This document shows positions 1-17,970 of a stretch of DNA of 64,000 nucleotides, piece by piece. The first letter of the stretch is position 1. Every line of letters starts with the position of its first letter. The DNA comes from Pectobacterium peruviense (GTDB taxonomy: Bacteria; Pseudomonadota; Gammaproteobacteria; Enterobacterales; Enterobacteriaceae). The notes under the pieces were generated by a model. That model was not told where the DNA came from. It did no database searches and saw nothing but the letters and a program-made list of their open reading frames with translations. Location of the stretch: NCBI RefSeq assembly GCF_002847345.1, contig NZ_LXFV01000001.1:124001-188000 (forward strand), read 5' to 3'. The translations under genes were made by a program, and so were the position numbers.

Positions 1-1378
<1,378 letters not shown>

Positions 1379-1469
1379 CTGATTTGAACCAGCCAGTTTT
1401 AGTACAAAATCGAGTATTGCAACGCTGGCGTTAATCACACCAGCGTCAGCTATAACGGCAAGAATACCA

Positions 1470-2108
1470 TCAAACGGATGGGCAACGCGCCAATATCTGT
1501 TTCGCTTCTTTGACCAGTTGACTGCGTGAGAACATCAACTGTAAGCGCCCACCACCAATCTGTTGCCAGAGCACCGTAGAACGGATTCCGGCCAGCAGCG
1601 CGGCACGGACTTTAGCTTGCACCTGGCTGTTTTTCAGCACTTCTGGTGAGCCAGTAACCTGAATACGTGGCCCCAGCGTGCTGATGACATCCACGTAAAT
1701 CGCGGCGAGCGCGCTAACGATCGTTTCGGAAAGTAGCTCAAAATGCTCCAGTTGGCGTTCCAACTGCCCGATGCGCTTACCTAATTCGTCAAGCGCAGCA
1801 GATTTCGCATTCAGCTTGCGTTCTAACGCGATCAGACTGAAGGTATAGCGCGATAATTCTGCACCCGCGCCTTTGTTACTGCTGGTATTCAGAATACCCA
1901 GTAGCGTTTCCAGCCCAACCTTCAGGTTTTGCTCGTCATTGCCGTAAACGGCCAACGTAGATGCCGGATTGAGGTTCAACACGCTGTTCAGCGAGGTATG
2001 CAGCACATCATTATTACAGTTTCCCGTGTGGGCCAACTGCTGGACTAAATGTGCTGATTGGCAAATGCCTGCGAGCGCCAGCGTGATTTCATAATAATTC
2101 TTAGCCAC
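1470..2108 (-). CDS. hflD: high frequency lysogenization protein HflD
   Basis: The 212-residue product begins (GTG)[24 protein letters not shown] and matches HflD in length (E. coli 213) and sequence. I chose GTG at 2108 because an ACAGGAGTAACC ribosome site precedes it and the family start aligns here; an upstream ATG would add 15 residues from inside mnmA. HflD is a peripheral inner-membrane protein that binds lambda CII and lowers lysogenisation (established for E. coli). It starts 2 bp after the mnmA stop, and its ribosome site lies within the last mnmA codons, indicating translational coupling. Confidence 0.93.
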
Positions 2109-2110
2109 GG

Positions 2111-3217
2111 TTACTCCTGTAAGCGTTCTTCGATGATGCCGCCACCAAGGCAAACGTCGTCTAGGTAAAAGACAGCGGATTGGCCCGGAGTTACGGCAGC
2201 GACGGGCTCATCAAAACGCACGGTAATGCGATCGTCGCCAAGTGGGGTGACGGTGCAGGGAATATCCGCCTGACGGTAACGGGTTTTCACCGTGCAGCGT
2301 AATTCAGCGGTCAGCGGCTGGCGATCGACCCAGTGTAACTGCTGTGCGATTAAGCCGTACGACATCAGACGAGGGTGTTCGTGACCCTGCGCGACATACA
2401 GAATATTGTTGGCGACGTCTTTATCCACCACGTACCAAGGATCTTCGCCGCCGTCTTTGACGCCGCCAATCCCCAGTCCTTTGCGCTGTCCCAGCGTGTG
2501 GTACATCAGCCCCTGATGTTGTCCCATCGGTTTATTGTCGTCGACGGACAGAATCGGGCCGGGCTGTGCGGGAAGGTAACGCGCCAGAAAATCGGTGAAT
2601 TTGCGTTCGCCGATGAAGCAAATACCCGTAGAGTCTTTCTTCTTCGCGGTAGCCAGTTCAAGTTCTTCGGCGATCTTGCGCACCTGTGGCTTTTCCAGTT
2701 CGCCGACGGGGAACAGACTTTGTGAAATTTGTTCATGGCTCAGCGTATAAAGAAAATAGCTCTGGTCTTTGTTGCCGTCCATGCCGCGCAGCAAACGGCT
2801 TTTGCCGTCAACGTCGTGACGACGGACATAGTGGCCTGTCGCGATATAGTCCGCCCCGAGATCCTCGGCAGCGAACTCCAGGAAGGCTTTGAATTTGATT
2901 TCTTTATTGCACAGGATATCGGGATTGGGGGTGCGGCCCGCTTTATATTCTTCAAGGAAGAGTTCAAAAACGTTATCCCAATATTCCGCGGCAAAATTGA
3001 CGGTATGTAATTCGATACCCAGTTTGTCGCAAACGGCCTGTGCATCAGCAAGGTCAGTGGCCGCTGAGCAATATTCCGTGTCGTCATCCTCTTCCCAGTT
3101 CTTCATGAACAGGCCTTCAACATGATAGCCCTGTTGCTGTAACAGGTAAGCGGAAACGGAGGAATCAACACCGCCGGACATACCGACAATCACTTTTTTC
3201 TGGCTGTTATCTGACAT
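2111..3217 (-). CDS. mnmA: tRNA-specific 2-thiouridylase MnmA
   Basis: The 368-residue protein has the PP-loop SGGVDSS near residue 15, the catalytic Cys in [11 protein letters not shown] and the second Cys in [10 protein letters not shown]. It transfers sulfur to U34 of tRNA-Lys, -Glu and -Gln in the s2U pathway with IscS/Tus relay proteins (family knowledge). Length equals the E. coli enzyme. It heads the mnmA-hflD-purB set; nudJ ends 138 bp upstream. Confidence 0.97.
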
Positions 3218-3355
3218 GGGAGTCTCACGAACTGAAATTTACTGGCGCATTGATGCGAAAAACAAGCGGCATATTTTAGCATGTTGAACCGAGGGCTGCA
3301 TCGCTATTCCTGCCGCGTGGTGGTTAGCTCACGCGTGGCAGGAATGGCAAGATGT

Positions 3356-3802
3356 CTAAAAAGGCCAGTTAAACGCGCCCAATACGGTTAACGGATAGCG
3401 TTCTGGCTGCTGATAGCAGCGAATACTTTCGGCCACCAGTGGTGAACGAAGCTGGCGAGAATGCAGAATTTCTTCGGCGGTCACCCAGCGACAGCATTCG
3501 ATGTCGCTGTCGTGCGGTTGGGTGTCGACCCGCTGAGGCAGATCGAGCGCGAAGCAAAAGCGTAAAAACGGTGTGTTATCTGGGGCAATCCATTGATGCA
3601 GACGCAAGAAACTGTGTGGCGCTGCCTGAATGCCGGTCTCTTCCCATAGCTCACGGCTCGCCGCCTGAATCAGCGTCTCGTCGGCTTCCAGATGGCCCGC
3701 GGGTTGGTTCCACAATAATTTGTCGTTAATTAACTCTTCGACGACCAGAAAATAGTTCTCGGCCTGTACCACACAGGCAACCGTTACATGGGGTTTAAAC
3801 AT
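3356..3802 (-). CDS. nudJ: Nudix phosphatase NudJ
   Basis: The 148-residue protein carries a full Nudix box (G37[22 protein letters not shown]). NudJ hydrolyses nucleoside di- and triphosphates and HMP-PP (known for E. coli YmfB). The gene start overlaps the end of rluE by 8 bp, so the two are translationally coupled; rluE-nudJ-mnmA order is conserved with E. coli. Confidence 0.94.
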
Positions 3803-4421
3803 CCGCTATCTCCTTCCATTCTCCGGGTAACAGGTTTTCTACGGTTTGATTGGCCATGCCGTATCGAATCAGACGCAGGGTAGGATACCCGATATTCGCC
3901 GTCATACGACGGACTTGCCGATTACGACCTTCATACAGCGTAATTTTTAGCCAGCAGTCAGGAATGCTTTTACGTTCGCGTATTGGAGGATTACGCGGCC
4001 ACAGCCAGTCAGGTTCCGGCACGATCTCCGCGCCTGCAGGCTGCGTTTTACCGTCATTCAGTTCCAAACCGGTACGAAAGCGCGTCAGTGCGGCCTCATC
4101 AGGAATGCCTTCAACTTGAACATAGTAGATTTTGGCCGTTTTTTTCGTCGGCTGAGTTAGCCGTGCCTGAAGCTTGCCGTCATTGGTGAGAATCATCAGG
4201 CCTTCGCTGTCGCGATCCAGACGCCCAGCGGCATAAATGCCGCTAATCGGAATGTAATCTTTCAGCGTGCTACGCCCAGCTTCATCAGTGAATTGCGGCA
4301 AGACATCGAAGGGCTTGTTGAACAAAACAATCCGGCGCGGCGTATTCTCAGGCTGCCTTTTTCTTGCTGGCTGTGAGCTGAATCGTTTAACTTTGTGATT
4401 TTTAACAGGGAATTTATTCAT
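3795..4421 (-). CDS. rluE: 23S rRNA pseudouridine(2457) synthase RluE
   Basis: The RsuA-family protein shows [16 protein letters not shown] followed by the catalytic motif [15 protein letters not shown] with the conserved Asp, and KPTKKTAK-like [17 protein letters not shown]. It makes pseudouridine 2457 in 23S rRNA. I start at the ATG at 4421 (4424 is also possible); an in-frame ATG at 4451 is unlikely because it overlaps a TATAAT promoter element. It lies divergent from icd. Confidence 0.92.
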
Positions 4422-4449
4422 CATCTTTATAGTCGCGGATAACAAAAGC

Positions 4450-4455
4450 ATTATA
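4450..4455 (-). promoter_or_regulatory. candidate -10 box of rluE-nudJ
   Basis: The minus strand reads GAGTATAATG here, a perfect TATAAT, 29 bp upstream of the chosen rluE start. No good -35 is visible. It argues against the longer rluE reading frame beginning at 4451. Confidence 0.55.
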
Positions 4456-4552
4456 CTCGAAATGGTTTGCGATTGGCGCGGGCTAAATATTCAAGTAGTA
4501 TTGACACGCATCTTACAAGTCATTAACAAAATTGCGCTCGAAGGAGAGGTTA

Positions 4553-5806
4553 ATGGAAAGCAAAGTAGTGGTACCGACAGAAGGTCAGAAAATCACGGTT
4601 GATGCTCAAGGCAAACTGGTTGTTCCGAACAATCCGGTTATCCCGTTTATCGAAGGTGACGGCATTGGTATCGATGTAACGCCAGCCATGATCAACGTAG
4701 TGGACGCCGCCGTGAAAAAAGCCTATCAGGGCAAGCGCGCGATTTCCTGGATGGAGATCTACACAGGTGAGAAATCCACGCAAGTTTACGGTAAAGATGT
4801 CTGGCTGCCAGATGAAACGCTGGATCTGATCCGTGAATATCGTGTGGCGATTAAGGGCCCGCTGACAACGCCAGTCGGCGGTGGCATTCGTTCTCTGAAC
4901 GTTGCACTGCGCCAACAGCTGGATCTGTATGTTTGCCTGCGTCCGGTACGCTACTACGAAGGTACACCTAGCCCAGTTAAACAGCCTGAACTGACTGACA
5001 TGGTGATCTTCCGCGAAAACGCCGAAGACATCTATGCAGGTATTGAGTGGAAAGCGGGGTCTGCTGAAGCAGACAAAGTGATCAAATTCCTGCGTGAAGA
5101 AATGGGCGTTAGCAAAATCCGTTTCCCTGAGCAGTGTGGCATCGGCGTGAAGCCGTGCTCCGAAGAAGGTACCAAACGTCTGGTTCGCGCTGCGATCGAA
5201 TACGCGATTACCAACGACCGTGATTCCCTCACGCTGGTACACAAAGGCAACATCATGAAATTCACCGAAGGCGCGTTTAAAGACTGGGGTTACCAGTTAG
5301 CGCGTGAAGAATTCGGCGGTGAACTGATCGATGGCGGTCCGTGGGTGAAGATCAAGAACCCGAACACGGGCAAAGAGATCGTGGTAAAAGACGTGATCGC
5401 CGATGCATTCCTGCAACAAATCCTGCTGCGTCCTGCTGAATATGACGTAATCGCCTGTATGAACCTGAACGGTGACTACATTTCTGATGCGCTGGCAGCA
5501 CAGGTTGGCGGTATCGGTATTGCTCCGGGCGCAAACATCGGTGACGAATGTGCACTGTTTGAAGCCACGCACGGTACTGCACCGAAATATGCTGGTCAGG
5601 ATAAAGTGAACCCAGGTTCTGTTATTCTGTCTGCTGAAATGATGCTGCGTCACCTGCAATGGTTCGAAGCGGCTGACCTGATTGTTAAAGGCGTTGAAGG
5701 CGCGATCAAGAACAAGACCGTGACTTACGATTTCGAACGTCTGATGGAAGGCGCTACGCTGCGGAAATGTAGCGAGTTTGCGCAGGACATCATCGATAAC
5801 ATGTAA
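4553..5806 (+). CDS. icd: NADP-dependent isocitrate dehydrogenase
   Basis: The 417-residue protein begins [14 protein letters not shown] and contains the substrate and regulatory loop [17 protein letters not shown], whose Ser corresponds to the AceK phosphorylation site (Ser113 in E. coli), and the C-terminal [20 protein letters not shown]. It oxidises isocitrate to 2-oxoglutarate in the TCA cycle. ATG 4553 follows AAGGAGAGG at 4541-4549; an in-frame TTG at 4532 lacks such a site. A TTGACA at 4501-4506 may be its -35. Confidence 0.98.
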
Positions 5807-5832
5807 TCTGCAGTTAAGTGCAGATGACTATC

Positions 5833-5859
5833 AGGGGCCGATTCGGCCCCTTAATTTTT
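5833..5859 (+). terminator. rho-independent terminator of icd
   Basis: AGGGGCCGATTCGGCCCCTT forms a strong hairpin followed by AATTTTT, 27 bp after the icd stop codon. Confidence 0.85.
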
Positions 5860-5923
5860 CCCTCAGATTCCTTTCCCCAAAACCATCCTATTTTGTATTC
5901 ATCGCCGTTGACCTAATTATTCT

Positions 5924-7051
5924 TTACGGGTGACCAATGCCCTGTGAACCGGGGATGAGCTGGAAGTACATCTGTTCTGGAATCGGGCTGTCCCAGCCTC
6001 CCGTATACATTGCGAAACCGATTATGCCGAAAAGGATGCCGAGCACCAGTACAGTCATCGCAATACCTGACAGTGCGGTTTGTCGCCATAGTGGTTTGGC
6101 TGCGTCACTGTCTTTTTCCTGCGATCCTGAAGGCTGAATCAGTGAGAAATGGAGCGTCGATGCCACCGGACAGGATTCGACGCAGGTCATGCAGGCTGTG
6201 CATTCTGCGGTTCTCACCTGAATTAGCTTATCCACCGGAATGTTAGAGGGACAGGCCTTTGCACACTTGCCGCAATCGATACAGCTAGTGGCATTTCGGC
6301 GGATCTTGAAGGGTGACAGCAGCGAAAATACGCCCAAGAGCGCACCATAAGGACATAGGTAGCGACACCAAAAATGACGGACAAACAGGCTGGCAAGCAT
6401 AAAGAGAAAAATACAGACCAGCGTGACGGTGCCGATATTGCGGAAAAAACCGAGCATTTTGACGTCAGCGATCAGACCGTAAGGTGACATCAGAAACATA
6501 TAAATGCCCTGTGCTGGCATTGATAAGGCGATGTAGAGGAAAAAACTCAATAATAGATATTTTAGGCTACGTAGCAGAATGTCCAGCCATCTTGGAAGAA
6601 TGAAGTGGCGGCCAAACATTTTTTTCCCCAATGCACCTACCCACTCGGAAATCGTGCCGATAGGGCACAGCCAGGAGCAGAACGATTTTTTCAGCAACAG
6701 GCTGGTGAGAATAAATGCGAGAAGTAATAGCATTGATGCAAGGTGGATAGGGGGGAAATTACCCGTTTCCCAGGTGAACTTAACGTTCATCAATCCTGCA
6801 ATTGGCAGCCAGCCTTCGATACCGCCTGGCCTCGACATATAAAGCGTCGTGCCGCCAGTTTCAAAGTAACGTACCCAAAAATAGAAAGTGACGCCGATAT
6901 AGACATTGACCGTCAGTAGCAGGATCTGTGTTGCTCTGCGCCAAGTCAGTGCGTTACGCCAGTCGTTCCAAGGACGTTTACCGCCGACGGTTCCGGGTCG
7001 GCGTTGCCACCGCTTTCTTACTTTCTCGCTCATTGCTTTCAATTGCCCCAT
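5924..7051 (-). CDS. NapH/YccM-type membrane polyferredoxin
   Basis: The 375-residue integral membrane protein has about five or six hydrophobic segments, two CxxxCP motifs (FCSWLCPIG and FWCRYLCPYG) and, near residues 255-300, two ferredoxin clusters (CIDCGKCAKACP and CTACMTCVESCP). This is the layout of the NapH/CcoG/YccM family, which passes electrons from the quinone pool to periplasmic or membrane partners. No nap, tor or other reductase gene is next to it, so the partner is unknown. Start is uncertain: ATG 7051 or ATG 7033, neither with a strong ribosome site. Confidence 0.85.
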   Translation of the reverse strand: MGQLKAMSEKVRKRWQRRPGTVGGKRPWNDWRNALTWRRATQILLLTVNVYIGVTFYFWVRYFETGGTTLYMSRPGGIEGWLPIAGLMNVKFTWETGNFPPIHLASMLLLLAFILTSLLLKKSFCSWLCPIGTISEWVGALGKKMFGRHFILPRWLDILLRSLKYLLLSFFLYIALSMPAQGIYMFLMSPYGLIADVKMLGFFRNIGTVTLVCIFLFMLASLFVRHFWCRYLCPYGALLGVFSLLSPFKIRRNATSCIDCGKCAKACPSNIPVDKLIQVRTAECTACMTCVESCPVASTLHFSLIQPSGSQEKDSDAAKPLWRQTALSGIAMTVLVLGILFGIIGFAMYTGGWDSPIPEQMYFQLIPGSQGIGHP

Positions 7052-7283
7052 TTATTTTTTTTCACTCGGCGTTTTCAACACGCCGAAGGGATCGTGGGGC
7101 AACGTTATCATGCTCTTAACGGTCAAAAATTGATTTGTGCATTACAAATGCATGTTTTTGAGGTTTTTAGCTGCTTGATTTGTATAAGAAGATAGGTAGT
7201 AACGTGAGCGACATTGCATATGTATTGAATGACTCAATATAGTGTTGGAGGGGTTTTTCTGAAAAAAAAACGGGGTGTTAGAT
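7052..7283. other. AT-rich spacer without a recognisable gene
   Basis: About 230 bp between the polyferredoxin start and the putative mor terminator. I see runs of A and T and no convincing ORF or operator. It may hold the promoter of the polyferredoxin gene, but no good -35/-10 pair could be assigned. Confidence 0.4.
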
Positions 7284-7315
7284 ATATAAAAATGATGGGC
7301 ACGCAAGCGTACCCA
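7284..7315 (-). terminator. candidate terminator downstream of the mor-like gene
   Basis: On the minus strand TGGGTACGC-TT-GCGTGCCCA is an imperfect 9-bp hairpin followed by TCATTTTTATA. It lies about 215 bp beyond the stop of the Mor-family gene; the intervening 215 bp (7316-7530) are very AT-rich with no ORF. Confidence 0.45.
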
Positions 7316-7530
7316 TTCTATTAATTACCTGGTGAAAATATAGTTGAATATATCTGTTATATTTAAAATTCCGTGCATTTCCTGAATCATCGAATAGAAT
7401 GTCTTGTTGCATTCACTGCAACTTGAGTTTTTAATTAATTTTTAATTGAGGTTATAAGTTTTTTTATTAAACTGTATTTTTATTTCTTTATTTAATTTCT
7501 GTGCGAAATTATAATTTATTATTCTTTATA

Positions 7531-7881
7531 TTACGCTAGGTTTTTTTGCTTTTCCTGTAGCTCATCCTTTCTCATGGTTCTGACAATTTTATAAATCCAT
7601 TGCAGTGAGACATTATATTTCTTCGCAAGAGCACTATGATTGCGCCCATCGAATTCTTCATATATTTGGAGATCCCGCTGAGAGGCACGCCAAGAAATCC
7701 CCATCGGGAAATAAACATTTTGTCCGCCCCACACGGTCATCATATGTTTGGCAACGGCATTGCCGACCAGTTCGGCGGTTTGTGGATCCAACTCAGTGAC
7801 GTTTTTGACTGTATCGGCAACGTGTTGAGAAAGTTCGACCAGAAGCTCAGGGCCTTTACTGCGAAATTGTGGCTCAGTCAT
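7531..7881 (-). CDS. Mor (Mu middle operon regulator) family transcription activator
   Basis: The 116-residue protein fits the Mor/C family of phage Mu: an N-terminal dimerisation part with VWGGQNVYFPMGISW, then a C-terminal helix-turn-helix DLQIYEEFDGRNHSALAKKYNVSLQWIYKIVRTMRKDEL. Mu Mor (129 aa) activates the middle promoter. No Mu structural gene is nearby, so this is an isolated regulator. AAGGTG precedes the ATG. Its promoter upstream carries a sequence related to the operator of the adjacent CI-like repressor, suggesting it is repressed by it. Targets are unknown. Confidence 0.85.
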   Translation of the reverse strand: MTEPQFRSKGPELLVELSQHVADTVKNVTELDPQTAELVGNAVAKHMMTVWGGQNVYFPMGISWRASQRDLQIYEEFDGRNHSALAKKYNVSLQWIYKIVRTMRKDELQEKQKNLA

Positions 7882-7933
7882 AAATCACCTTATCCTTAAA
7901 GAAAATAATTACTGCTTATGTGGGGATTTGTTC

Positions 7934-7956
7934 ATTGCTATCTCTGGGATAGCAAT
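7934..7956 (-). other. perfect inverted repeat in the mor-like 5' leader
   Basis: ATTGCTATC and GATAGCAAT (9 bp each, 5-nt loop) lie 53-75 bp upstream of the Mor-family ATG and downstream of its putative promoter, so they would form a hairpin in the leader RNA or a protein-binding palindrome. Confidence 0.55.
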
Positions 7957-7970
7957 CGCGTTATGTGTTC

Positions 7971-7999
7971 ATTTAAAACTATAGTTGTTTTTGTGTCAA
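7971..7999 (-). promoter_or_regulatory. mor-like promoter with embedded operator O3
   Basis: Minus strand: -35 TTGACA (7999-7994), 17-bp spacer, -10 TTAAAT (7976-7971). The spacer holds ACAACTATAGTTTT (7975-7988), a near-palindrome resembling the operator at 9075-9092. Two further GTTGT half-sites follow at 8020-8024 and 8030-8034. Assignment is by inspection only. Confidence 0.5.
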
Positions 8000-8087
8000 C
8001 ATCTTTAGTTTTAATTCGAGTTGTTTTTGGTTGTTAATGGCAGTGGGCGCAGTAACGCGATATGCAGACAAGGGGCCAACGAGCAGC

Positions 8088-8113
8088 AAAAAAAATCCCG
8101 CCATAGGGCGGGA
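8088..8113 (-). terminator. terminator downstream of the CI-like repressor
   Basis: On the minus strand TCCCGCC-CTAT-GGCGGGA is followed by eight T residues, an excellent intrinsic terminator. It separates the repressor transcript from the mor-like promoter. A weaker hairpin (8247-8278) lies between it and the repressor stop; the rest of 8114-8330 shows no gene. Confidence 0.8.
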
Positions 8114-8330
8114 AAGCAACACATAGACAGGAGGAATAACACAACATCAACAAGGGGTGATAAAACCATAACATGGTGATTGTATAAAACTGTTATGCGT
8201 GGGTAAGGTTATCTGGGAGAGGGTAAACGTTTTTGAAGTACGGAACAAAGCTGGTGTCCGCATTGGCTCACCGGCTTTGGTTAGAGGAAAAACGCGATAG
8301 CGACGTAAGCGAAGAACTATCTAAGCCGTG

Positions 8331-9065
8331 CTATAACAGTACCGAATACCAGAACACACGGCCGATGATTTCGACCTCGGATTCGTAGGCTTCTTCGTCA
8401 GCATCGCGGTTAAAGCTATGGATGACAAGGAGGCCGCCAGGCTTGCGGTAAAGTTGTTTGATTCGCTTGAGCTTATCGTTGCCACTGCCTTCCTGAGCAA
8501 TGGCGTAGAGCTTTCCATCAATGATGCGTTTGTTGTTAGTATCAACTGCAACGGTGGTGCCATCCGGGATGATGGGTTCCATACTGTCACCCGCTGCCGG
8601 GAAACAAAGAACACCTGAACCGTCAGTATTTGCACCGACCTTACGCAGCGTGGCTTTGGAAAAACGGAGCTTAAAGCCGTTGTAATCCTCACTTTGAATG
8701 CGCCCGTCGCCGCATGCAAACTCAATATCCTTTAAAAAAGGCACTTCCACCTCGTCCTCTGATAGTTCTGTCGTGCTGTCCCAAGCGGATACGGTGCCCC
8801 ATTTTGATGTTGGCGGAATGCTCGATTCCTGGAGTGATCGAACCACCCTGTCGCTACGCATTGGGCCTTCGCCATTTGCCAACCATTCAGGTCGAATATG
8901 TAGTGCATTGGAAAGCTCAACAATTTTGGTTGTCTGCGACGCTTTCCCCACCTCAATCTTCTGTATGGCGGCCTGAGATACACCAATCATGTCGCCAAGT
9001 GCTTTTTGGCTAAGCCCTTGTGCAGTCCTGGCGGTCTTTAATCGTTCTGCAAGTGTCGTTTTCAT
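8331..9065 (-). CDS. CI/LexA-like self-cleaving phage repressor (XRE HTH + S24 peptidase)
   Basis: The 244-residue protein has an XRE helix-turn-helix at about 5-60 (LSQKALGDMIGVSQAAIQKIE) and a C-terminal S24 domain. The catalytic Ser is S161 in GDSMEP and the likely Lys is K200 in LKRIK. The probable autocleavage bond is C118-G119 in FACGDG, as in UmuD. Such repressors are cleaved with RecA during SOS. No cro, integrase or other phage gene adjoins. The ATG at 9065 has no ribosome site and sits where its promoter should start transcription, so the mRNA may be leaderless like lambda PRM. It likely represses itself and the mor-like gene. Confidence 0.9.
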   Translation of the reverse strand: MKTTLAERLKTARTAQGLSQKALGDMIGVSQAAIQKIEVGKASQTTKIVELSNALHIRPEWLANGEGPMRSDRVVRSLQESSIPPTSKWGTVSAWDSTTELSEDEVEVPFLKDIEFACGDGRIQSEDYNGFKLRFSKATLRKVGANTDGSGVLCFPAAGDSMEPIIPDGTTVAVDTNNKRIIDGKLYAIAQEGSGNDKLKRIKQLYRKPGGLLVIHSFNRDADEEAYESEVEIIGRVFWYSVLL

Positions 9066-9071
9066 TCGTTC

Positions 9072-9100
9072 AATTTACAACCTAGGTTGTAATTTATCAA
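9072..9100 (-). promoter_or_regulatory. repressor promoter with perfect palindromic operator O1
   Basis: Minus strand: -35 TTGATA (9100-9095), 17-bp spacer, -10 TAAATT (9077-9072), predicted start at the A of the ATG at 9065. The 18-bp perfect palindrome TTACAACCTAGGTTGTAA (9075-9092) fills the spacer, so a repressor bound there would block RNA polymerase, consistent with autoregulation. Confidence 0.65.
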
Positions 9101-9178
9101 GTGGATATTAATCTTGTTTAAAAAAACCAAAGCTATGTATCGTTGGTGTGCGAAGGTCATCATAAATACAACCATAAA

Positions 9179-9194
9179 AACAATTTAAGTTGTT
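9179..9194. promoter_or_regulatory. second operator-like palindrome O2
   Basis: AACAATTTAAGTTGTT has 7 of 8 symmetric pairs and shares the ACAA...GTTGT halves of O1. A lone half-site, TACAACC, lies at 9167-9173. Spacing from O1 is about 103 bp centre to centre. Confidence 0.5.
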
Positions 9195-9338
9195 ATTCCG
9201 CGAGGTGAAACCTGTGCGGATGTATGAGACAGCATCAAAATAATGCTATCGCCTGACTATCAAAAATTCTAATAAATGTCAGGCTGTCATAGTATCGTCT
9301 TATTCCATCTCCTGATTTGACTTAAACATGTGTGTAGC

Positions 9339-9352
9339 TTGATCTAAATCAC
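9339..9352. promoter_or_regulatory. FNR/CRP-type site
   Basis: TTGATCTAAATCAC matches the FNR half-sites TTGAT-N4-ATCAA at 9 of 10 positions and also the right half of a CRP site (ATCACA). It lies about 107 bp before the chosen start of the small gene at 9459. Otherwise 9195-9458 shows no gene. Confidence 0.4.
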
Positions 9353-9458
9353 AATCTGACTGTATGCATTTTGCTCTTATGGAAATCCCGTTGTGGGAAA
9401 TACAACCAATAAATTCGTTTCATTAAGCATGCGCATGACTGCGTGTCGCGGAGGATGT

Positions 9459-9716
9459 ATGTCTGTAATTCGCACGTGTTTAAGTCTGTTTGGCGGTGAT
9501 ACGGTAATTGTCCGGTGTGCTAATACATTTGAAGTACAAATGAGTAATGGTGAACAGGAATCGATGACCGAAGAGAATAGTGCTACACAGGATTCTATTT
9601 TCCGTCATGCTGAAGGTGAAGTGTATTTAACCGTGCCTTATACAGGAACTTGGGATGTCGTTATTCGAGCAAAAAATGACACACCTGAACACTCGATAAC
9701 CTATTTTCCCGCCTGA
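9459..9716 (+). CDS. small DUF1883-like protein
   Basis: The 85-residue product starts MSVIRTCLSLFGGDTVIV. The pattern GDxVxVxC at the N-terminus and VYLTVPYTGTWDVVIRAK near the C-terminus resembles the DUF1883 fold, recalled from family members that have GDVVxVxC and VPxxGxWxVxI. No signal peptide or membrane segment. I chose ATG 9459 because GGAGG at 9450-9454 precedes it; the frame is open back to 9393. Function unknown; DUF1883 can occur with TIR domains, but none is present here. Confidence 0.5.
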   Translation: MSVIRTCLSLFGGDTVIVRCANTFEVQMSNGEQESMTEENSATQDSIFRHAEGEVYLTVPYTGTWDVVIRAKNDTPEHSITYFPA

Positions 9717-10108
9717 TAATCCCTTGGTTGGTTATATTCTGTTAATAACTTGATAATCTATTGTCGTTATCCGGTAGTGAGTCTCTGAATATACCAACCT
9801 TCTCCTTTCTTTTCTGCCGACATTGCTCAACGTTGTGAGTGCATCGGTAGCTTTCTATTTCGTTTTTCATCTATCATCTTAATTGATACGTCCATTTGTT
9901 ATTATTAATGATTCTAAGGGATGATAGAGTCTGGATCTTTTGCCATACTCACACTCAGCCACCATGCGTCTTGGCTCTTGGCAAGAGAGGGAGCGTTGGT
10001 TTACTCATGCTGGCCTGTTGCTCTTGTCGTGCTCATTGCTGCAACATTTTGGATTTATAGCTAAATTTTGTCTAATCTGAACATTAATACGATGGGAGGG
10101 GGGAACCC
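9717..10108. other. intergenic region, nothing recognised
   Basis: About 390 bp with no convincing ORF, repeat or terminator. It must contain the promoter of the downstream GGDEF-EAL gene, whose ribosome site is GGGAGGGGGG at 10094-10103. Confidence 0.4.
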
Positions 10109-12277
10109 ATGAGCCGTGCCCCAATAAGCAAAGATGAAGACAAACGTCTTGCTGCTCTTCGTGAGTATGGCATTAAGAACGTATTATTTGACCCAGGTTT
10201 GAGTAACCTGATTAGCTTGGCCGCTAACATCTTTAGTGCGCCTATTGTTTTGGTATCGTTGGTAGAGGCTGAACGTCAACTGTTTGCCGCCAGCGTCGGG
10301 GTTCCGTTTTGTGAAACGCCCCGAGATATCTCTTTTTGTGCCCACACGATCCTAAAGAAAAAGATCATGGTGGTGCCTGATGCGCTCAATGATGCGCGTT
10401 TCAAAAATAACCCGCTGGTTGTAGGCATTCCCTACATTCGTTTTTACGCGGGCATCCCATTAATTACGCCGTCCGGACATGCTATTGGCACACTGTGCAT
10501 TATCGATTTGAAGCCCAGAGCGACATTCACCAAGCGTGATGAGCATAATATGCAGGATCTGGCTTCATTGGTCATGGACAAGCTGGAAATGCGACGTCTT
10601 GAACTCGCGCGTAAAGCCAGTCAGGTTCGTTTTGAAAATATCGCTAATACCTCACCGGATACGATTTTGTGTGTTAATGAGAAGGGGATGATTACTTTCT
10701 GGAATACCGCTGCGGAAAATATGCTGGGATACAGTGACGAGGACATTATTGGTCTCAATATTAATACCATTGTTCCTGATGCCTTTATCGTGCAGCTCAA
10801 CCATTTAGTGACCGACCGTGATTCGCTGATGAAAGGTGTGACGTTAGAACTGAATGTGCAAGCTAAAAGCGGCAGTCTGGTACCGGTTGAATTGTCGGTT
10901 TCTATGTGGGAAGACAACGACAATATTAGCTATGGTGCGATATTGCGTGACATCACAGAACGTCGCCGCAATGAAGAACGACTGTTTTTGTTAGCGCACA
11001 TGGATCCGCTTACGGGGTTGGCAAACCGGACATTATTAACATCCAATCTCGAAACCGCGCTAAAGAATGAACCTGCCGTCTGTATCATGATGGTCGATCT
11101 GGATGGATTTAAAGATGTTAATGACAGTCTGGGGCATTCCAGCGGCGATGATATTCTGGTGCACGTCGCTAAAAAAATAAAAGCGACGGTCCGTTCCGGC
11201 GATGTTGTGGCGCGAATGGGCGGGGATGAGTTCGCACTGCTGTTTCCTGGCCTGAATGATAAAAGAGTCGCAGGAAAAATTGCCGAGCAAATTATTCATG
11301 AAATTTCTCAGGCGATGATTATTGACGATCACCAAATCAATATTAGCGCCAGCATTGGCGCAGTGCTGTATCCCGACTATGGATTGACGGTGCAAGATCT
11401 CTTGACCAGCGCCGATTTAGCGCTGTATCAGGCGAAGTCCGAAGGTCGAAATTGTTACCGTTTTTTCACGCGTGAGCTGCTTGAGGTGTTTCAGGCCAAG
11501 CATGCTTTTCAGCTCGAGTTTGTGCGGGCTTACGAGCAGCATGAATTTGAAATGTTCTATCAGCCACAGGTAAAACTGGCGACAAATGAGATTGTTGGTG
11601 CGGAAGCACTGCTGCGTTGGCGTCACCCTGAAAGAGGATTGCTTGGCCCGGCCGCATTCCTCACCGCACTGGAAAATGGCCCGTGGGCGGAGCGAGTCGG
11701 CGATTGGATCGTAGAAACAGCATGTAAGCAGGCCGCAGAGTGGTGTCAGGCTAGCGACAAATATTTTCGTATCAGCATTAACCTTTTCAGTGCGCAGTTT
11801 CGTACCGGCCTTTTGGCGCAGAAAATTATGGATACCCTCACTCGAACAGGGTTGGAACCCAGCTCGCTGGAACTGGAGATTACAGAAAACATTATCCTGC
11901 GTTACGACGAGAATATGATGCAACCGTTAAAGACGCTGCGGGAAGCGGGAATCGGCATTGCATTTGACGATTATGGAACGGGCTATGCCTCTCTCAGTAT
12001 GCTTAAAAACTACCCAGTGACTCGATTGAAGATCGATCAAACCTTTGTCAGGACCATGTGCGAATCTCCGCCGGATGCGGCGATTGTCAGGGCGATCTTG
12101 TATCTTGGAAAAAGTTTTGGCCTGGGCGTGATTGCCGAGGGTGTGGAAACATTAGAGCAGAGCGAGCGGCTACGCGGCAAGGGGTGTGAGGAAGCGCAGG
12201 GATATCTGTTTGGGCATCCGATGCCTGCGGAGGAATTCACTCAGCTACTGAAATTGAATAAGCCGATAGACGTGTAA
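10109..12277 (+). CDS. GAF-PAS-GGDEF-EAL cyclic-di-GMP signalling protein
   Basis: The 722-residue cytoplasmic protein has an N-terminal GAF domain (about 25-165, with CETPRDISFCAHTI and FYAGIPL), a PAS domain (about 172-290), a GGDEF domain with an intact GGDEF at 371-375, and an EAL domain with EAL at 499-501, FDDYGTGYASLSML and KIDQTFV. Both diguanylate cyclase and phosphodiesterase motifs look complete, so either or both activities are possible. No membrane segment, so it likely senses a cytosolic ligand through GAF/PAS. It is monocistronic and ends in a good terminator. Confidence 0.93.
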   Translation: MSRAPISKDEDKRLAALREYGIKNVLFDPGLSNLISLAANIFSAPIVLVSLVEAERQLFAASVGVPFCETPRDISFCAHTILKKKIMVVPDALNDARFKNNPLVVGIPYIRFYAGIPLITPSGHAIGTLCIIDLKPRATFTKRDEHNMQDLASLVMDKLEMRRLELARKASQVRFENIANTSPDTILCVNEKGMITFWNTAAENMLGYSDEDIIGLNINTIVPDAFIVQLNHLVTDRDSLMKGVTLELNVQAKSGSLVPVELSVSMWEDNDNISYGAILRDITERRRNEERLFLLAHMDPLTGLANRTLLTSNLETALKNEPAVCIMMVDLDGFKDVNDSLGHSSGDDILVHVAKKIKATVRSGDVVARMGGDEFALLFPGLNDKRVAGKIAEQIIHEISQAMIIDDHQINISASIGAVLYPDYGLTVQDLLTSADLALYQAKSEGRNCYRFFTRELLEVFQAKHAFQLEFVRAYEQHEFEMFYQPQVKLATNEIVGAEALLRWRHPERGLLGPAAFLTALENGPWAERVGDWIVETACKQAAEWCQASDKYFRISINLFSAQFRTGLLAQKIMDTLTRTGLEPSSLELEITENIILRYDENMMQPLKTLREAGIGIAFDDYGTGYASLSMLKNYPVTRLKIDQTFVRTMCESPPDAAIVRAILYLGKSFGLGVIAEGVETLEQSERLRGKGCEEAQGYLFGHPMPAEEFTQLLKLNKPIDV

Positions 12278-12303
12278 ATGGTCGTACTGTGCCAATCTTC
12301 CCT

Positions 12304-12327
12304 AAAAGCCAGCGTCTGCTGGCTTTT
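12304..12327 (+). terminator. terminator of the GGDEF-EAL gene
   Basis: AAAAGCCAGC-GTCT-GCTGGCTTTT is a 10-bp perfect hairpin ending in T residues, 27 bp after the stop. Confidence 0.85.
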
Positions 12328-12424
12328 ATACTTTGCGCTTCCTACGCGGTTAACAGACTAAAAAGTGGAATGTGGATCACATTTTTTCTATAGTGCTGGC
12401 TTGTAACCCAGTACCGGATGTCCC

Positions 12425-14167
12425 GTGCACGAAATATTTGAAATGCTCCTTGCGGTCTTTGACCGCGCTGCCCTGATGCTGATTTGCCTATTCTTCCTGA
12501 CTAGAACGCGCCAGTTCAGGCAATTGCTGCAAAAAGAGCAACATTCACCGAGAGAGCGAGTGACGGTGACGGCCATCTTTTCTCTGTTTGCTCTGTTCGG
12601 TACGTATTCCGGAATTAATGTTGAAGGATCGCTCGTCAACGTGCGGGTGATTGCCGTGATGTCTGGCGGTATTCTCTTCGGCCCTTGGGTGGGGATCGCG
12701 ACGGGTATCATTGCGGGAGCACACCGTTATTTAATTGATATTGATGGCATTACCTCTGTACCTTGCCTGATTACCAGCATCATCGCGGGTATCACTTCCG
12801 GTTACATCAATAAGAAAATCAAAAAAGAGCAGCAGTGGAGTATCGGGATTCTGGGCGGAATGCTGTGTGAGTCATTAACCATGCTGCTGGTTGTTGCATG
12901 GGCGACGCCGATCGAGTTAGGACTGGATATTGTTTCAAAAATTGCCGTGCCGATGATTCTTGGCTCCATCTGTATTGGCCTGATTGTACTGCTGGTGCAG
13001 AGCGTCGCGAATGAAAAAGAGGTGATTGCCGCTAGGCAGGCCAAACTCGCGCTGGATATCGCACACAAAACACTGCCGTATTTCCGCAACATTAACAGCG
13101 ATTCACTGACGGCTATTTGTAGGATCATTCGTACTGAAATTAATGCGGACGCAGTGGCGATAACGAACACGCAGCACATTCAGGCTTACGTGGGGATTGG
13201 GGAAGACAAATATAATATCGGCCACGATATTATCAGCCCGATGACTCAGCAGGCGATCCATGACGGTAAAATCATCATTAAAAATAATGATGAACAGCAT
13301 CTTACGCCGGAAATTCATTCGATGATTGTCATCCCGCTGTGGGAACACGGGCAGGTGACTGGCACGCTGAAAATCTATTATCGCCATGCCCATAAAATTA
13401 CTTATTCATTACGCGTGATGGCTGTCGGCCTATCGCAAATCATGTCAACGCAAATTGAGGTTTCCCGTACAGAACAACTGCGTGATATGGCAAATAAGGC
13501 GGAACTGAGAGCGCTGCAAAGTAAAATCAATCCGCACTTTCTTTTTAATGCTCTGAATGCGATTTCCTCGTCCATTCGTATTAATCCCGATACGGCGCGC
13601 CAGTTGGTCATCAATCTGTCTCGCTATTTGCGCTATAACCTCGAACTTAACGACGATGCGCTGATTGATATAAAAAAAGAGCTGTACCAAATTCAAGATT
13701 ATATCGCGATTGAGCAGGCACGCTTTGGCGCGAAGTTGACGGTGATTTACGACATTGACGACGATGTGGCGTACAAAATTCCTAGCTTATTAATTCAGCC
13801 GCTGGTGGAAAATGCGATTGTGCATGGTATTCAGCCTTTCAAAGGGAAGGGAACCGTGGTGCTGTCCGTGAAAGATCAGGGCGATAAGTTGCTGGTGGCG
13901 GTAAAAGATACGGGCCACGGCATCAGTCAGGAAACGATGGATCGCGTTGCGCGCAATGAATTGCCGGGGAATAAAATCGGCCTGCTGAATGTTCATCACC
14001 GGGTCCGGCTGCTCTATGGTGATGGCCTGCATATTCGCCGTTTGGAACCTGGAACTGAGATTTATTTCTACATCCCACGAGACGATAAAACCCCGTCGGC
14101 ATTGCCGGATACCGTGCAAGTGCCGTCATCAAGCTATGCTGCTGAGCAAACAGGAGGCAACCCATGA
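12425..14167 (+). CDS. ypdA: LytS-type sensor histidine kinase YpdA (PyrS)
   Basis: The 580-residue protein is collinear with E. coli YpdA from its first residues (GTG start, [19 protein letters not shown]). It has a 5TM-LYT membrane sensor (about 1-180), a GAF domain (about 220-350) and a His kinase domain with [10 protein letters not shown], His371 being the phospho-acceptor, and [22 protein letters not shown] in the ATPase part. In E. coli YpdA/YpdB responds to pyruvate (established). It is about 15 residues longer than E. coli at the C-terminus. A CRP-like half-site (GGATCACAT near 12374) and TATAGT (12389-12394) lie upstream. Its stop overlaps ypdB by ATGA. Confidence 0.95.
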
Positions 14168-14913
14168 AAGCCATTATTGTTGAAGATGAGTTCCTCGCGC
14201 AGCAAGAGCTGAGTTATCTCATCAAGCAGCACAGTGATATTACGATTGAGGCAACATTTGATGACGGGTTGGATGTCCTGAAGTATCTGCAACATAACGA
14301 AGTCGATGCGATCTTTTTGGATATCAATATTCCATCGTTAGACGGCGTTTGGCTGGCGCAAAATATCAGCAAATTCGCGCACAAGCCTTACATCATTTTT
14401 ATTACGGCGTACAAAGAACATGCGGTCGAGGCATTTGAAGTCGAGGCTTTCGATTACATTCTCAAGCCGTATCATGAATCTCGCATCATTACGATGTTGC
14501 GTAAGCTGGAAGCGACCTGGCAACAGCGGCAAATTGCACCCGCTGTTGAAACGGGCGCGCATTCGAGCGCACCAAGAGGCGCACAGCAAACGATTAATTT
14601 GATGAAAGACGAACGGATTATCGTCACGGATATTAACAATATCTACTACGCGGCCGCGCAGGAAAAGGTCACGCTGGTTTATACCCGCCGTGAGGAATTC
14701 ATCATGCCGATGAATATTACGGAGTTTTGTAGTCGCCTACCGGAAGACTATTTTTTCCGCTGTCATCGTTCTTACTGTGTCAACCTGACGAAAATCCGTG
14801 AAATTGTGCCGTGGTTTAACAATACGTATATCCTGCGATTGAACGATCTGGATTTTGAAGTCCCGGTCAGCCGGAGCAAAATAAAGGAGTTCAGGTCATT
14901 GATGCGTCTTTAA
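14164..14913 (+). CDS. ypdB: LytTR response regulator YpdB (PyrR)
   Basis: The 249-residue protein has a receiver domain with acidic EDE at 7-9, phospho-acceptor D53 in [11 protein letters not shown] and K in LKPY, and a C-terminal LytTR DNA-binding domain ([26 protein letters not shown]). It starts inside the ypdA stop (ATGA). A direct repeat matching the known YpdB site begins 2 bp after its stop, in front of yhjX. Confidence 0.96.
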
Positions 14914-14914
14914 A

Positions 14915-14984
14915 GGCATTTCATTCCGCGTTTCAGGCATCTCATTCCCCATTCGATCAATCACTGTCAGCCCGCTTGTATACT
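14915..14984 (+). promoter_or_regulatory. YpdB binding repeats and yhjX promoter
   Basis: GGCATTTCAT (14915-14924) and GGCATCTCAT (14936-14945) are separated by exactly 11 bp, the arrangement known for YpdB at E. coli yhjX (from memory GGCATTTCAT-N11-GGCATTTCAT). A -10 TATACT lies at 14979-14984 with no good -35, as expected for an activator-dependent promoter. Confidence 0.85.
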
Positions 14985-15009
14985 GGCCTCAGCCCATAAG
15001 CTGACAGTG
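14962..15009. repeat. 10-bp inverted repeat flanking the yhjX -10 box
   Basis: CACTGTCAGC (14962-14971) and GCTGACAGTG (15000-15009) are perfect inverted copies 28 bp apart, with the -10 TATACT in the loop. It may be an operator for a looping or dimeric regulator, or a leaky terminator for ypdAB (followed by TTTTG). Confidence 0.6.
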
Positions 15010-15097
15010 TTTTGATGGCTTTTCTCTTCTCCACATCAGCTTATATTTTTTAGCGTGCCGAGTGAATCGGACCAATTTTTGATGTAGGGGAAAACCC

Positions 15098-16321
15098 ATG
15101 AATACTAAACCTGTTAATCGGGGATTGATTGTCCTCGGTACCATTATCACCCAAATGGGACTTGGCACGATTTACACCTGGAGTTTATTCAACCAGCCGC
15201 TGGTGGACAAATTTGGCTGGACGTTGAGTTCCGTTGCAACGACGTTTTCAATCACCAGCTTCTGTCTGGCATTTGCAACGCTATTTGCTGGTAAATTTCA
15301 GGAACGTATTGGCTTGCGCCGCTTGACCATGATTGCTGGCATCGCGCTGGGTGCCGGTCTGATGGCGAGTGCCGTGAGTCCGTCGCTGACGCTGATTTAT
15401 CTGCTAGTGGGGGTGGTTGTCGGTTTTGCTGACGGCACGGCTTACATCACGACGCTGTCCAATTTGATCAAATGGTTCCCCAATCGCAAAGGGCTGATCG
15501 CGGGTATTTCGGTTGGCTCATTCGGTACCGGAAGTCTGTTGTTTAAATATGTAAACAGCTTTTTGATTGCGGAAGTGGGTGTATCAGAAACCTTTTTCTA
15601 CTGGGGAATTATCGTTATGGCGATGATTCTGGTCGGGAGTTCATTGCTGAAAGAGCCCGCTGCGGTGCCGGTACAACAAGCTGCGATTCAGGGACAGGCG
15701 CGTGATTTCTCGCTGGCTGAGATGTTGGCAACCAAAGAATCGTATTTGCTGTTTATTATCTTCTTCACTGCGTGCATGAGCGGTCTGTATTTGATCGGTA
15801 TTGTGAAAGATATCGGCGTGCAAATGGCCGGAATGGATATGGCGACGGCGGCAAATGCCGTGTCTGCGATTGCGATTTTTAATACCGTTGGGCGTATTGT
15901 GCTTGGGGCGCTTTCCGATAATGTCGGGCGTATGCGGGTCATCACCTTTACGCTGTTTGTGACAATTCTGGCTGTGTCCGTGATGACGTTCCTGCCGCTT
16001 AATCCAATTCTGTTCTTTACCTGTGTCAGCGCGATTGCCTTCTGCTTTGGCGGCAACATCACGGTGTTCCCAGCGATTGTTGGTGATTTCTTCGGCCTGA
16101 AAAATCACAGTAAAAATTATGGCGTGATTTATCAGGGATTTGGTATCGGCGCGTTGTCTGGCTCGTTTATCGCCGCACAACTCGGTGGATTCCAGGCGAC
16201 ATTTATGGCAATCATCATTATGTCTGTTGTCTCGCTGCTGATTACCCTGTGGATTAAACCGCCTAAACATCAGCCCGTTGCTGCCTCAATGCGTGCTGAT
16301 ATGGCACACGCACAGAGCTGA
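15098..16321 (+). CDS. yhjX: OFA-family MFS transporter YhjX
   Basis: The 407-residue protein has twelve hydrophobic segments and follows E. coli YhjX through TIITQ-LGxxYTWSLFN, SGKLQERxGxRRxTM-like FAGKFQERIGLRRLTM and FGGNITVFPAIVGDFFGLKNHSKNYGVIY. It is in the oxalate:formate antiporter branch; E. coli YhjX is induced by YpdA/YpdB with pyruvate and was proposed to move pyruvate. AGGGG precedes the ATG. Here it directly follows ypdAB, whereas in E. coli it is unlinked. Confidence 0.92.
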   Translation: MNTKPVNRGLIVLGTIITQMGLGTIYTWSLFNQPLVDKFGWTLSSVATTFSITSFCLAFATLFAGKFQERIGLRRLTMIAGIALGAGLMASAVSPSLTLIYLLVGVVVGFADGTAYITTLSNLIKWFPNRKGLIAGISVGSFGTGSLLFKYVNSFLIAEVGVSETFFYWGIIVMAMILVGSSLLKEPAAVPVQQAAIQGQARDFSLAEMLATKESYLLFIIFFTACMSGLYLIGIVKDIGVQMAGMDMATAANAVSAIAIFNTVGRIVLGALSDNVGRMRVITFTLFVTILAVSVMTFLPLNPILFFTCVSAIAFCFGGNITVFPAIVGDFFGLKNHSKNYGVIYQGFGIGALSGSFIAAQLGGFQATFMAIIIMSVVSLLITLWIKPPKHQPVAASMRADMAHAQS

Positions 16322-16344
16322 TAGAACGCCACGTTAACAGAACA

Positions 16345-16386
16345 TCGCGCTGGGTCTCATATGTTGCCCAGCGCGAGATTATTTCT
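16345..16386 (+). terminator. terminator of yhjX
   Basis: TCGCGCTGGG and CCCAGCGCGA form a 10-bp perfect stem with a 12-nt loop, followed by GATTATTTCT. The rest of 16387-16520 shows no gene. Confidence 0.7.
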
Positions 16387-16520
16387 CTTTCCTGCCTCAA
16401 AACACCTTCTCTTCATCTGCTGAAATATCGCGATACAGTTCATCACTTTCCCAGTCATACACGTGTCACAGGCGAACCCTAGCGTCGTTATCGGCACGTT
16501 TTTTCCCTGAAGCGGGCTTC

Positions 16521-16584
16521 CTTAAAAACAACCGATCTTAAAAATGACGTCCTTTAAACATGACGTCCCTTGAAAATGAGAATA
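16521..16584. repeat. four 16-bp tandem repeats upstream of the ugpB-like gene
   Basis: Units start at 16521, 16537, 16553 and 16569: CTTAAAAACAACCGAT, CTTAAAAATGACGTCC, TTTAAACATGACGTCC, CTTGAAAATGAGAATA. Units 2 and 3 agree at 14 of 16 positions; the outer ones keep mainly the left half. The array ends 6 bp before the GGAG ribosome site at 16591. It resembles the purB array in period and placement. Confidence 0.7.
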
Positions 16585-16602
16585 GTAACCGGAGAAAACA
16601 CC

Positions 16603-17940
16603 ATGATGATTCGGTTTAGGTTCACATCTGTTTTTTTGATGCTGTTGAGTATGGTTTTACTTGTCCCGCTGTCTGCCAGAGCGGCCGTTGAACTGACATT
16701 TTGGCATGGCATGGACAGCAACCTGAACACGGAATTGATACGGCTGGTCAATCGGTTTAACGAATCTCAGACGACGTACCACGTTGAACCTATCTATAAG
16801 GGCAGCTATGAGCAGACGCTTGCCGCTGGCATTGCCGCCTATCGCACCGGTAACGCGCCGGATATTTTGCAGGTTTATGATGTCGGTACGCCGAATATGA
16901 TGCACAGCGGAGCGATTGTCCCAGTGTATGACCTGTTCAAACAGGTTGGTATCGATAATGACGAAAAAGCCTTTCTGCCCGCCGTGGCGCTGTTTTACAG
17001 CGACAGCCAGACCGGACATCTGATTTCCCAGCCGTTTAATAGCTCAACGCCTGTTCTCTACTACAACAAAGATGCGTTCATCAAAGCGGGACTCGATCCC
17101 GATAAGCCTCCACGCACCTGGAATGAGCTAGCGTACGATGCGGCACGACTGCGTCAGAGTGGGATGACATGCGGCTATACCAATGCAGGACAGCAGGGGT
17201 GGATATTATTGGAGGCTTTTAGCGTGTGGAACGGGCTGCCGATTGCGACGAAAAACAATGGTTTCGATGGTGTTGATGCGCATCTGTTGGTGAACGGCCC
17301 GTTGCAGGTCGCACACATTGCTCAGCTTGCAGAGATGATGAAGAAGAAGGAATTCAGCTATTTCGGCCGCAATGACGAGGGCACTACCCGCTTTTATAAC
17401 GGTGATTGCGGCATATTGACTACCTCATCGGGTGGGCTACGCAAGATTCAGAACTATGCCAAATTCCATTACGGTGTAGGGATGCTGCCTTACAGCGAAG
17501 AGGCTAAAGGCGCGCCGCAGAATACGTTCATCGGAGGGGCAAGCCTCTGGGTTATGAAAGGCCAAACGGCCTCTCATTATCAAGGGATTGCTGAATTCCT
17601 GCATTTCCTTACGCTGCCGGAAAATGCTGCCGAATGGCATCAGATGACAGGCTATTTGCCGGTGACGCAGCCAGCCTACGATCTGACGCGCGAGCAGGGG
17701 TTTTATGCCAGATACCCCGGCAGTGATGTTGCCATGAAACAGATAACCAATAAGCCACCATTGCCTTATACGCGCGGGTTTCGATTAGGCAATATGCCGC
17801 AAATTCGTACCATCATGGACGAAGAGTTGGAGAAAGTTTGGGCAGAACAAGAAACGCCCCAGCAGGCGCTGGATAATGTGGTTTCGCGCGGTGATCTTCT
17901 GTTGCAGCATTTTGCGCAGTCGGTGTCCCGTCATTCGTGA
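16603..17940 (+). CDS. UgpB-like periplasmic solute-binding protein
   Basis: The 445-residue protein has a Sec signal peptide (hydrophobic core [14 protein letters not shown], cleavage near ARAA-VEL) and the ABC type-1 binding fold [21 protein letters not shown] that is typical of UgpB (glycerol-3-phosphate/glycerophosphodiester binding). Start: ATG 16603 after GGAGAA at 16591; an upstream in-frame ATG at 16570 falls in the repeats. A glycerophosphodiesterase gene follows, but no ugpA, ugpE or ugpC lies nearby, so its permease must be elsewhere or it is an orphan. Confidence 0.85.
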
Positions 17941-17970
17941 TATATCCCGTTTATGTGGAGTTTTCGACTG

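Follow-up and report, generated by a model that had tools for sequence, protein, structure and literature searches.

The rdgA-rdgB locus of Pectobacterium peruviense: a cleavable CI-type repressor and a Mor-family activator under apparently phage-derived promoters

The window, i.e., the whole stretch of 64,000 nucleotides of the Pectobacterium peruviense genome that was analysed, contains two adjoining genes on the same strand which, judged from the open reading frames and the sequence, each possess their own promoter:

7531..7881, minus strand: rdgB, 116 aa, transcription activator of the Mor/C family
8331..9065, minus strand: rdgA, 244 aa, phi80-type CI repressor with an S24 self-cleavage domain

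An earlier note on this DNA had described a self-cleaving CI-like repressor (S161, K200, cleavage bond C118-G119) and a phage Mu Mor-type activator, standing alone without phage structural genes. The residues were correctly assigned, as they line up with those of phi80 CI in an alignment. RdgA matches the Pfam domains Peptidase_S24 (2.4e-15) and HTH_3 (1.4e-11) and shares 58.7 % identity with CI of phi80, 60.7 % with CI of phiEt88 and 65.1 % with a Klebsiella phage CI; its matches in NCBIfam were below cut-off only and yielded no family name. The assignment of RdgB is borne out by a full-length match to the Pfam family Mor (PF08765, 1.3e-40, 138.2 bits versus a curated cut-off of 24.9, positions 1-107 of 107), by similarity to the solved chain of Mu Mor (1rr7, 1.4e-11, phmmer) and by a match to the PHROG late transcriptional activator (2e-40). 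At the DNA level, rdgB agrees at 94-97 % with named contigs of Pectobacterium. The isolated position is consistent with the listed open reading frames (1-18000 of the window), among which no phage structural genes were found in the neighbourhood of rdgA-rdgB. A cro-like open reading frame of at least 60 aa is absent from the plus strand between 9066 and 9393. An 85-aa open reading frame divergent from rdgA (9459-9716, plus strand) has no match in Pfam, NCBIfam or PHROGs at 0.001.

The pair is the RdgA-RdgB switch of Pectobacterium, a known system. In Erwinia carotovora subsp. carotovora/Pectobacterium, the same two genes of the same genus exert DNA-damage control of pectin lyase and carotovoricin, and no difference from the published RdgA-RdgB (Liu et al. 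1994, 1996; Yamada et al. 2008) was found. A P. versatile paper names RdgA and RdgB as pectin lyase regulators, citing Liu et al. 1994 (PMC7843439); the 1994 description has RdgA-RdgB regulating a DNA-damage-inducible pectin lyase. Judged by their titles or one-line statements, publications also cover the DNA-damage induction via RecA, the relief of rdgA autoregulation by RecA, and RdgB binding sequences for the bacteriocin and pectin lyase genes (Yamada et al. 2008, cited in PMC12227328). A table row 'RdgA-RdgB regulate system of pectin lyase production' in PMC6286560 gives the counts 29, 9, 15, 3, 10, 6, 8 and 4, which sum to 84, the genome number in the title, and three dashes where adjoining rows give Dickeya locus tags.

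The rdgA promoter region comprises the following features, the positions of the two promoters and of the operators in their spacers having been counted by hand:

9072..9100, minus strand: rdgA promoter (PRM-like), -35 TTGATA at 9095-9100, 17-bp spacer, -10 TAAATT at 9072-9077
9075..9092, strand not assigned: rdgA operator, 18-bp perfect palindrome TTACAACCTAGGTTGTAA, core 9077-9090, at -25 from the ATG
9123..9136, minus strand: decayed copy of the phage -72 operator, ATAGCTTTGGTTTT, 3 mismatches
9180..9193, strand not assigned: third operator-like site, 1 mismatch, at -128 from rdgA

The 18-bp perfect palindrome which the earlier note had placed in the spacer of the repressor promoter is indeed found there, between TTGATA and TAAATT and overlapping the -10, and the third copy that it had given as 9179-9194 corresponds to the site at 9180-9193. 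The start codon of rdgA follows 6 nt past the -10, and the transcript is therefore probably leaderless. A second, damage-induced start of rdgA was reportedly described in 1994. Alignment of the rdgA promoter across 23 loci revealed the operator at -25 with at most one mismatch in all 23, the third site (at -128 to -132, at most two mismatches) in 22, Samsonia being the exception, and a 2-mismatch version of the -72 operator at -71/-72 in 6. The motif ACAACN4GTTGT occurs at 112 sites in 4.78 Mb (at most one mismatch), four of them within 1.2 kb at the locus versus about 0.03 expected; genome-wide it is not enriched, since a backwards-pattern control gives 215 sites. One of the four, inside rdgA (8920-8933), was dropped as operator, being coding sequence with no counterpart seen in the phage layout described below.

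Upstream of rdgB, a promoter of apparent lambdoid PL type and two operator-like sites were recognized:

7971..7999, minus strand: rdgB promoter (lambdoid PL, as it appears), -35 TTGACA at 7994-7999, 17-bp spacer, -10 TTAAAT at 7971-7976
7975..7988, minus strand: OL1, ACAACTATAGTTTT, predicted RdgA operator in the rdgB promoter spacer
7999..8012, minus strand: OL2, AAAACTAAAGATGT, operator-like with 2 mismatches, situated 24 bp upstream of OL1 and in contact with the -35

OL1 is the near-palindrome previously noted in the 17-bp spacer of the mor-like promoter, one base off in register relative to the rdgA promoter. It is identical in 21 of 24 loci, the centre TATA being changed symmetrically to CATG in two and reading TTTA in one. 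OL2, two bases off the operator consensus and overlooked in the earlier note, shows no variation among the 24 loci, not even in Samsonia, where the sequence flanking OL1 and OL2 barely aligns over much of its length (by eye). A pair of this type with 24-bp spacing occurs once in the 64-kb window and in none of 20 shuffles. Further upstream of OL2, two ACAAC half-sites 10 bp apart (8020-8034, minus strand) are present in most aligned loci. The operators of rdgA and rdgB are approximately 1.1 kb apart, and looping between them may be possible. The rdgB leader contains a hairpin TTGCTATC...GATAGCAA (7934-7956, minus strand); upon folding of 24 leaders, many other species form a GCAGAG...CTCTGC-type hairpin at about the same place, such that pairing seems to be kept while the sequence changes. 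This hairpin is possibly an RNA element or a nut relic; no likeness to the phage leaders was noticed.

A match to rdgB was obtained in 24 of 25 genomes of the genus; in one of these (P. brasiliense CFBP8736) it is a contig-end fragment. Among 25 compared loci (the window, Samsonia erythrinae and 23 matches from the genus), rdgA adjoins rdgB without stops in 24, one of which is cut at the end of the locus. In Samsonia erythrinae, a member of a different genus, both genes are retained at 91-92 %. The dN/dS values relative to the window range from 0.036 to 0.087 for rdgA and from 0.009 to 0.056 for rdgB (six comparisons each), i.e., both genes are under strong purifying selection. The pair is thus not a recent fragment that is absent or broken in close relatives, a finding which, according to the earlier note, would have refuted its reading. 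Some relative of Mor is encoded in 16 of 149 genomes of the family, that of the window included; among the Mor loci other than the window's, a match to RdgA in the flanks (at most 1.5 kb) was found for Samsonia only.

Viral contigs were scanned with the N-terminal 75 residues of RdgA, and 80 of 133 relatives were kept. Considering distinct upstream regions of at least 100 bases, the operator (at most one mismatch) was located at -25 or -26 in all 43 viral-contig regions with an RdgA-like HTH, whereas any such site appeared in 0.6 % of shuffled regions. Of the 43, L153, L154 and L156 resemble rdgA of Pectobacterium itself and do not count as independent. The remaining 40 phage-like loci also carry an operator at -72 or -73, many of them being near-identical relatives rather than 40 independent events. 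These phage operator sites are predictions, annotated ones existing in phi80 only. Sites like those of rdgA are also present in phiEt88, the HTH of which is like that of RdgA; phi80 has a different HTH and other operators, although in its annotation, too, a CI operator occupies the spacer of pRM.

The rdgB promoter likewise has phage counterparts. Among the blastn-short matches listed, these lie downstream of cI in lambdoid loci and point the same way (L196, 33 bp, 94 %, 2e-8; L161, 35 bp, 91 %, 3e-7; E-values for the 83-locus set). Out of 77 loci examined (phiEt88 and L157-L232), eight with short downstream sequence and one repeat were set apart, and of the 68 that remained, all from phages or viral contigs and encoding an RdgA-like DNA-binding domain, 58 carry the OL1/OL2 pair with 24-bp spacing downstream; in the other ten, it was not found within the available downstream sequence. 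The phage OL2 reads ACAACTATTGTTGT in most loci and runs into the -35 as does the block at rdgB. Thus, the locus shares with lambdoid immunity regions of the phi80 and phiEt88 type the CI repressor, the operator in the PRM spacer, and, downstream of cI, an equally oriented PL whose spacer holds OL1, with OL2 24 bp upstream. It differs in having no divergent cro, a decayed -72 operator, and rdgB after PL in place of an N-type antiterminator. From the phage-like CI, operators and PL in the absence of cro, the locus can therefore be read as a lambdoid immunity region in reduced form, in which PL is followed by a mor gene, the rdgB promoter appearing to be a captured lambdoid PL.

The carotovoricin cluster (including the sheath) lies at the end of contig C3 of the same genome, and a pectin lyase of 314 aa is encoded on contig C26. 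The latter is presumably Pnl, judged from its length and from the box described below. The 2008 work reportedly located RdgB footprints on a perfect 7-bp inverted repeat in the pnl promoter as well as at the carotovoricin promoters P0, P1 and P2; these labels follow that work and were placed here by sequence. RdgB-box-like sites were recognized at the pnl and carotovoricin promoters of the same genome, purely as sequence likeness and backed by alignment for pnl, P0 and P1; the P2 box was read by eye in this genome only. The pnl box TTATTAA-N6-TTAATAA is present in 20 of 20 aligned upstream regions, its distance to the -10 being ambiguous (34 to 38 nt by hand). With the prophage tail genes L129-L131 and the prophage-type lysis genes L101-L106 left out of the counts, the exact core string of P0 was found in 21 of 23 aligned upstream regions and that of P1 in 22 of 22. 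A strict pattern, built from P0 and pnl themselves and as such bound to miss P1 and P2, retrieved three sites in the genome at no more than one mismatch: P0 and pnl (0 mismatches each) and C15:48105 (1 mismatch). The last was rejected as a further RdgB target, probably being due to chance, as a backwards control also gave three sites.

Searches across the 25 genomes of the genus recovered pnl (E up to 1e-100) in 20, the carotovoricin lysis gene in 23 and the 155-aa tail gene in 23, one of the latter (G155) having a 45 % prophage relative only. This genome, P. betavasculorum (L033, L060, L100, L129), possesses rdgA-rdgB, pnl and the carotovoricin lysis gene but no close copy of the 155-aa tail gene. 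For this species, partial loss of carotovoricin is published (PMC13195805), and the absence of the tail gene fits this loss, the switch being retained. Genome G151 lacks rdgB, pnl and close carotovoricin matches; it contains an 85-residue fragment of the lysis gene (L237, 78 %) with a stop. Samsonia possesses the carotovoricin lysis gene (88 %) with the box TTAAACCCCTTTAAAATC; a match to pnl was not obtained there at 1e-10, an empty result that is weak evidence.

The best phage matches of RdgB (58.6-59.5 % identity) are found in PhiKM (Bcepmuvirus), in the record of KP12, where the gene bears the note 'DNA-binding protein rdgB', and in Phi06_2974 B. Judged from sequence, RdgB is nearest to Mor of BcepMu-like phages, with Mor/C of Mu also among the closest known activators. 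The KP12 record (Klebsiella phage KP12, OM835952.1, L151) is filed in Vequintavirinae, yet contains a transposase, FluMu-like proteins and the gene noted as rdgB; this segment probably represents another phage or prophage under that name. PhiKM has box-like sites upstream of its own lysis, head and tail genes, which were chosen by eye as putative counterparts of the sites in P. peruviense: TTAACGCGCTTTAAAATC for lysis versus TTAAACTCCTTTAAAATC at P0, CTAAAGCAGATTAAAA at the head gene versus CTAAAACAGATTAAAA at P1, and CTTAATCTCCTTTAATATC at the tail gene versus CTAATTCACTTTAAAATC at P2. Three Pectobacterium genomes (G155, G161, G169) encode a further Mor at 59-60 % identity, with a gene related to that for carotovoricin lysis approximately 10 kb away. 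The surroundings of this mor gene were inspected in G169 and in part of G155; the prophage region of G169 encodes a sheath 82 % identical to the carotovoricin sheath as well as a transposase (PHROG 2e-132). Candidate repressors of three prophages (G169, G104, G117), picked by position, possess HTH domains (that of G169 below cut-off) but no S24 domain. Since an S24 domain is missing from these candidate repressors of three related prophages, BcepMu-like phages seem to be without SOS control. In contrast to Mor of such phages, RdgB is unlinked from its targets, stands beside a cleavable lambdoid repressor and reaches a host enzyme gene.

Taken together, we consider it very probable that RdgA represses its own gene and rdgB, and that damage-triggered cleavage allows expression of RdgB, which activates carotovoricin and pnl. 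RdgA would bind to the palindromic operators in its own promoter and to OL1 and OL2 of the rdgB promoter. Following DNA damage, RecA filaments would promote self-cleavage of RdgA at C118-G119, thereby opening both promoters, and RdgB would then activate the carotovoricin promoters and pnl; lysis genes of the carotovoricin cluster would finally release the products. The proposal of the earlier note, i.e., one cleavable repressor over both genes and a Mor-like activator acting on unlinked targets, perhaps carotovoricin, is thus supported in outline: it corresponds to the published RdgA-RdgB system, and both targets carry box-like sites. We infer the occupancy of the operators, a control of rdgB by repression alone, the cleavage of RdgA in this strain and the chimeric origin discussed below. 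A comparable arrangement is that of the pyocin regulators PrtR/PrtN of Pseudomonas aeruginosa, likewise a cleavable repressor over an activator of phage-tail bacteriocin genes; PrtN is not known to belong to the Mor family.

Derepression of both promoters followed by RdgB activation of the tailocin and pnl may be regarded as the parsimonious reading. One reported observation does not fit: rdgA was reportedly required for mitomycin induction of the pectin lyase gene in the genetics of 1994, and derepression predicts constitutive rdgB without RdgA. Such a requirement would favour an RdgA that is both repressor and activator, intact RdgA repressing itself, while rdgB would depend for its activation on RdgA in cleaved form or at a low level, or on RdgA bound to OL2 or the upstream half-sites. 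The stricter constraint on OL2 (24 of 24 loci) than on OL1, its contact with the -35, where activation of the lambda CI type could occur, and the two extra ACAAC half-sites in most loci are compatible with this role. However, OL1 in the spacer occupies a position for repression, PL is repressed by CI in lambdoid phages, and cleavage usually abolishes DNA binding of such repressors; an activating RdgA is accordingly considered rather unlikely. Still less probable, and in our view doubtful, is an activation of rdgB by its own product via the conserved block just upstream of the -35, taken as something other than OL2. The left half of this block (TAAAAC) and the left arm of the carotovoricin boxes are about equally far from the -10 (hand count), but the right arm misfits, and an operator with two mismatches at the exact phage OL2 spacing explains the block without RdgB, dual use being possible; this candidate was set aside for OL2 after comparison with the phage PL. 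That the pair merely represents a decaying prophage remnant without a role, as the missing cro, the decayed -72 operator and the lack of phage structural genes among the neighbouring open reading frames might suggest, can practically be dismissed, being contradicted by its conservation: almost every genome of the genus that was searched has the pair intact, as has Samsonia, dN/dS is low, the operators are kept while their flanks drift, and a function is published.

With derepression by RdgA cleavage as the preferred reading, the origin of the switch may be considered. We regard it as likely that two unrelated phages contributed to rdgA-rdgB as a natural chimera. Of a lambda-type immunity module, PRM-cI-PL would have been kept, and the mor gene of a BcepMu-like phage would have entered in the place of N, bringing the tail and lysis genes of that phage (now carotovoricin, with the Mor boxes kept in place) under SOS control. 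The gene of a host virulence enzyme would then have gained a box of greater regularity and entered the regulon. A domesticated Mu-like tail cluster thus appears to be driven by an immunity module of lambda type in which mor replaces N. The presence of rdgAB and a boxed lysis gene in Samsonia, together with the lack of a pnl match, suggests that regulator and tailocin came first and pectin lyase later, pnl seemingly being a later recruit to the regulon.

The pair and its role were already known. The PL/OL anatomy, OL2 as a second operator and the likeness of the boxes to phage sites appear to be new, no mention of them, nor of a BcepMu link of RdgA-RdgB, having been found in the limited literature searched, which did not include the primary papers of 1994, 1996 and 2008. 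It is established that, in a major group of crop pathogens, the switch ties DNA damage to bacteriocin release and to that of a plant-cell-wall enzyme. The PL/OL anatomy, if true, predicts exact RdgA sites at rdgB, namely OL1 and the second site OL2, and would explain how a Mu-like tail cluster became SOS-inducible.
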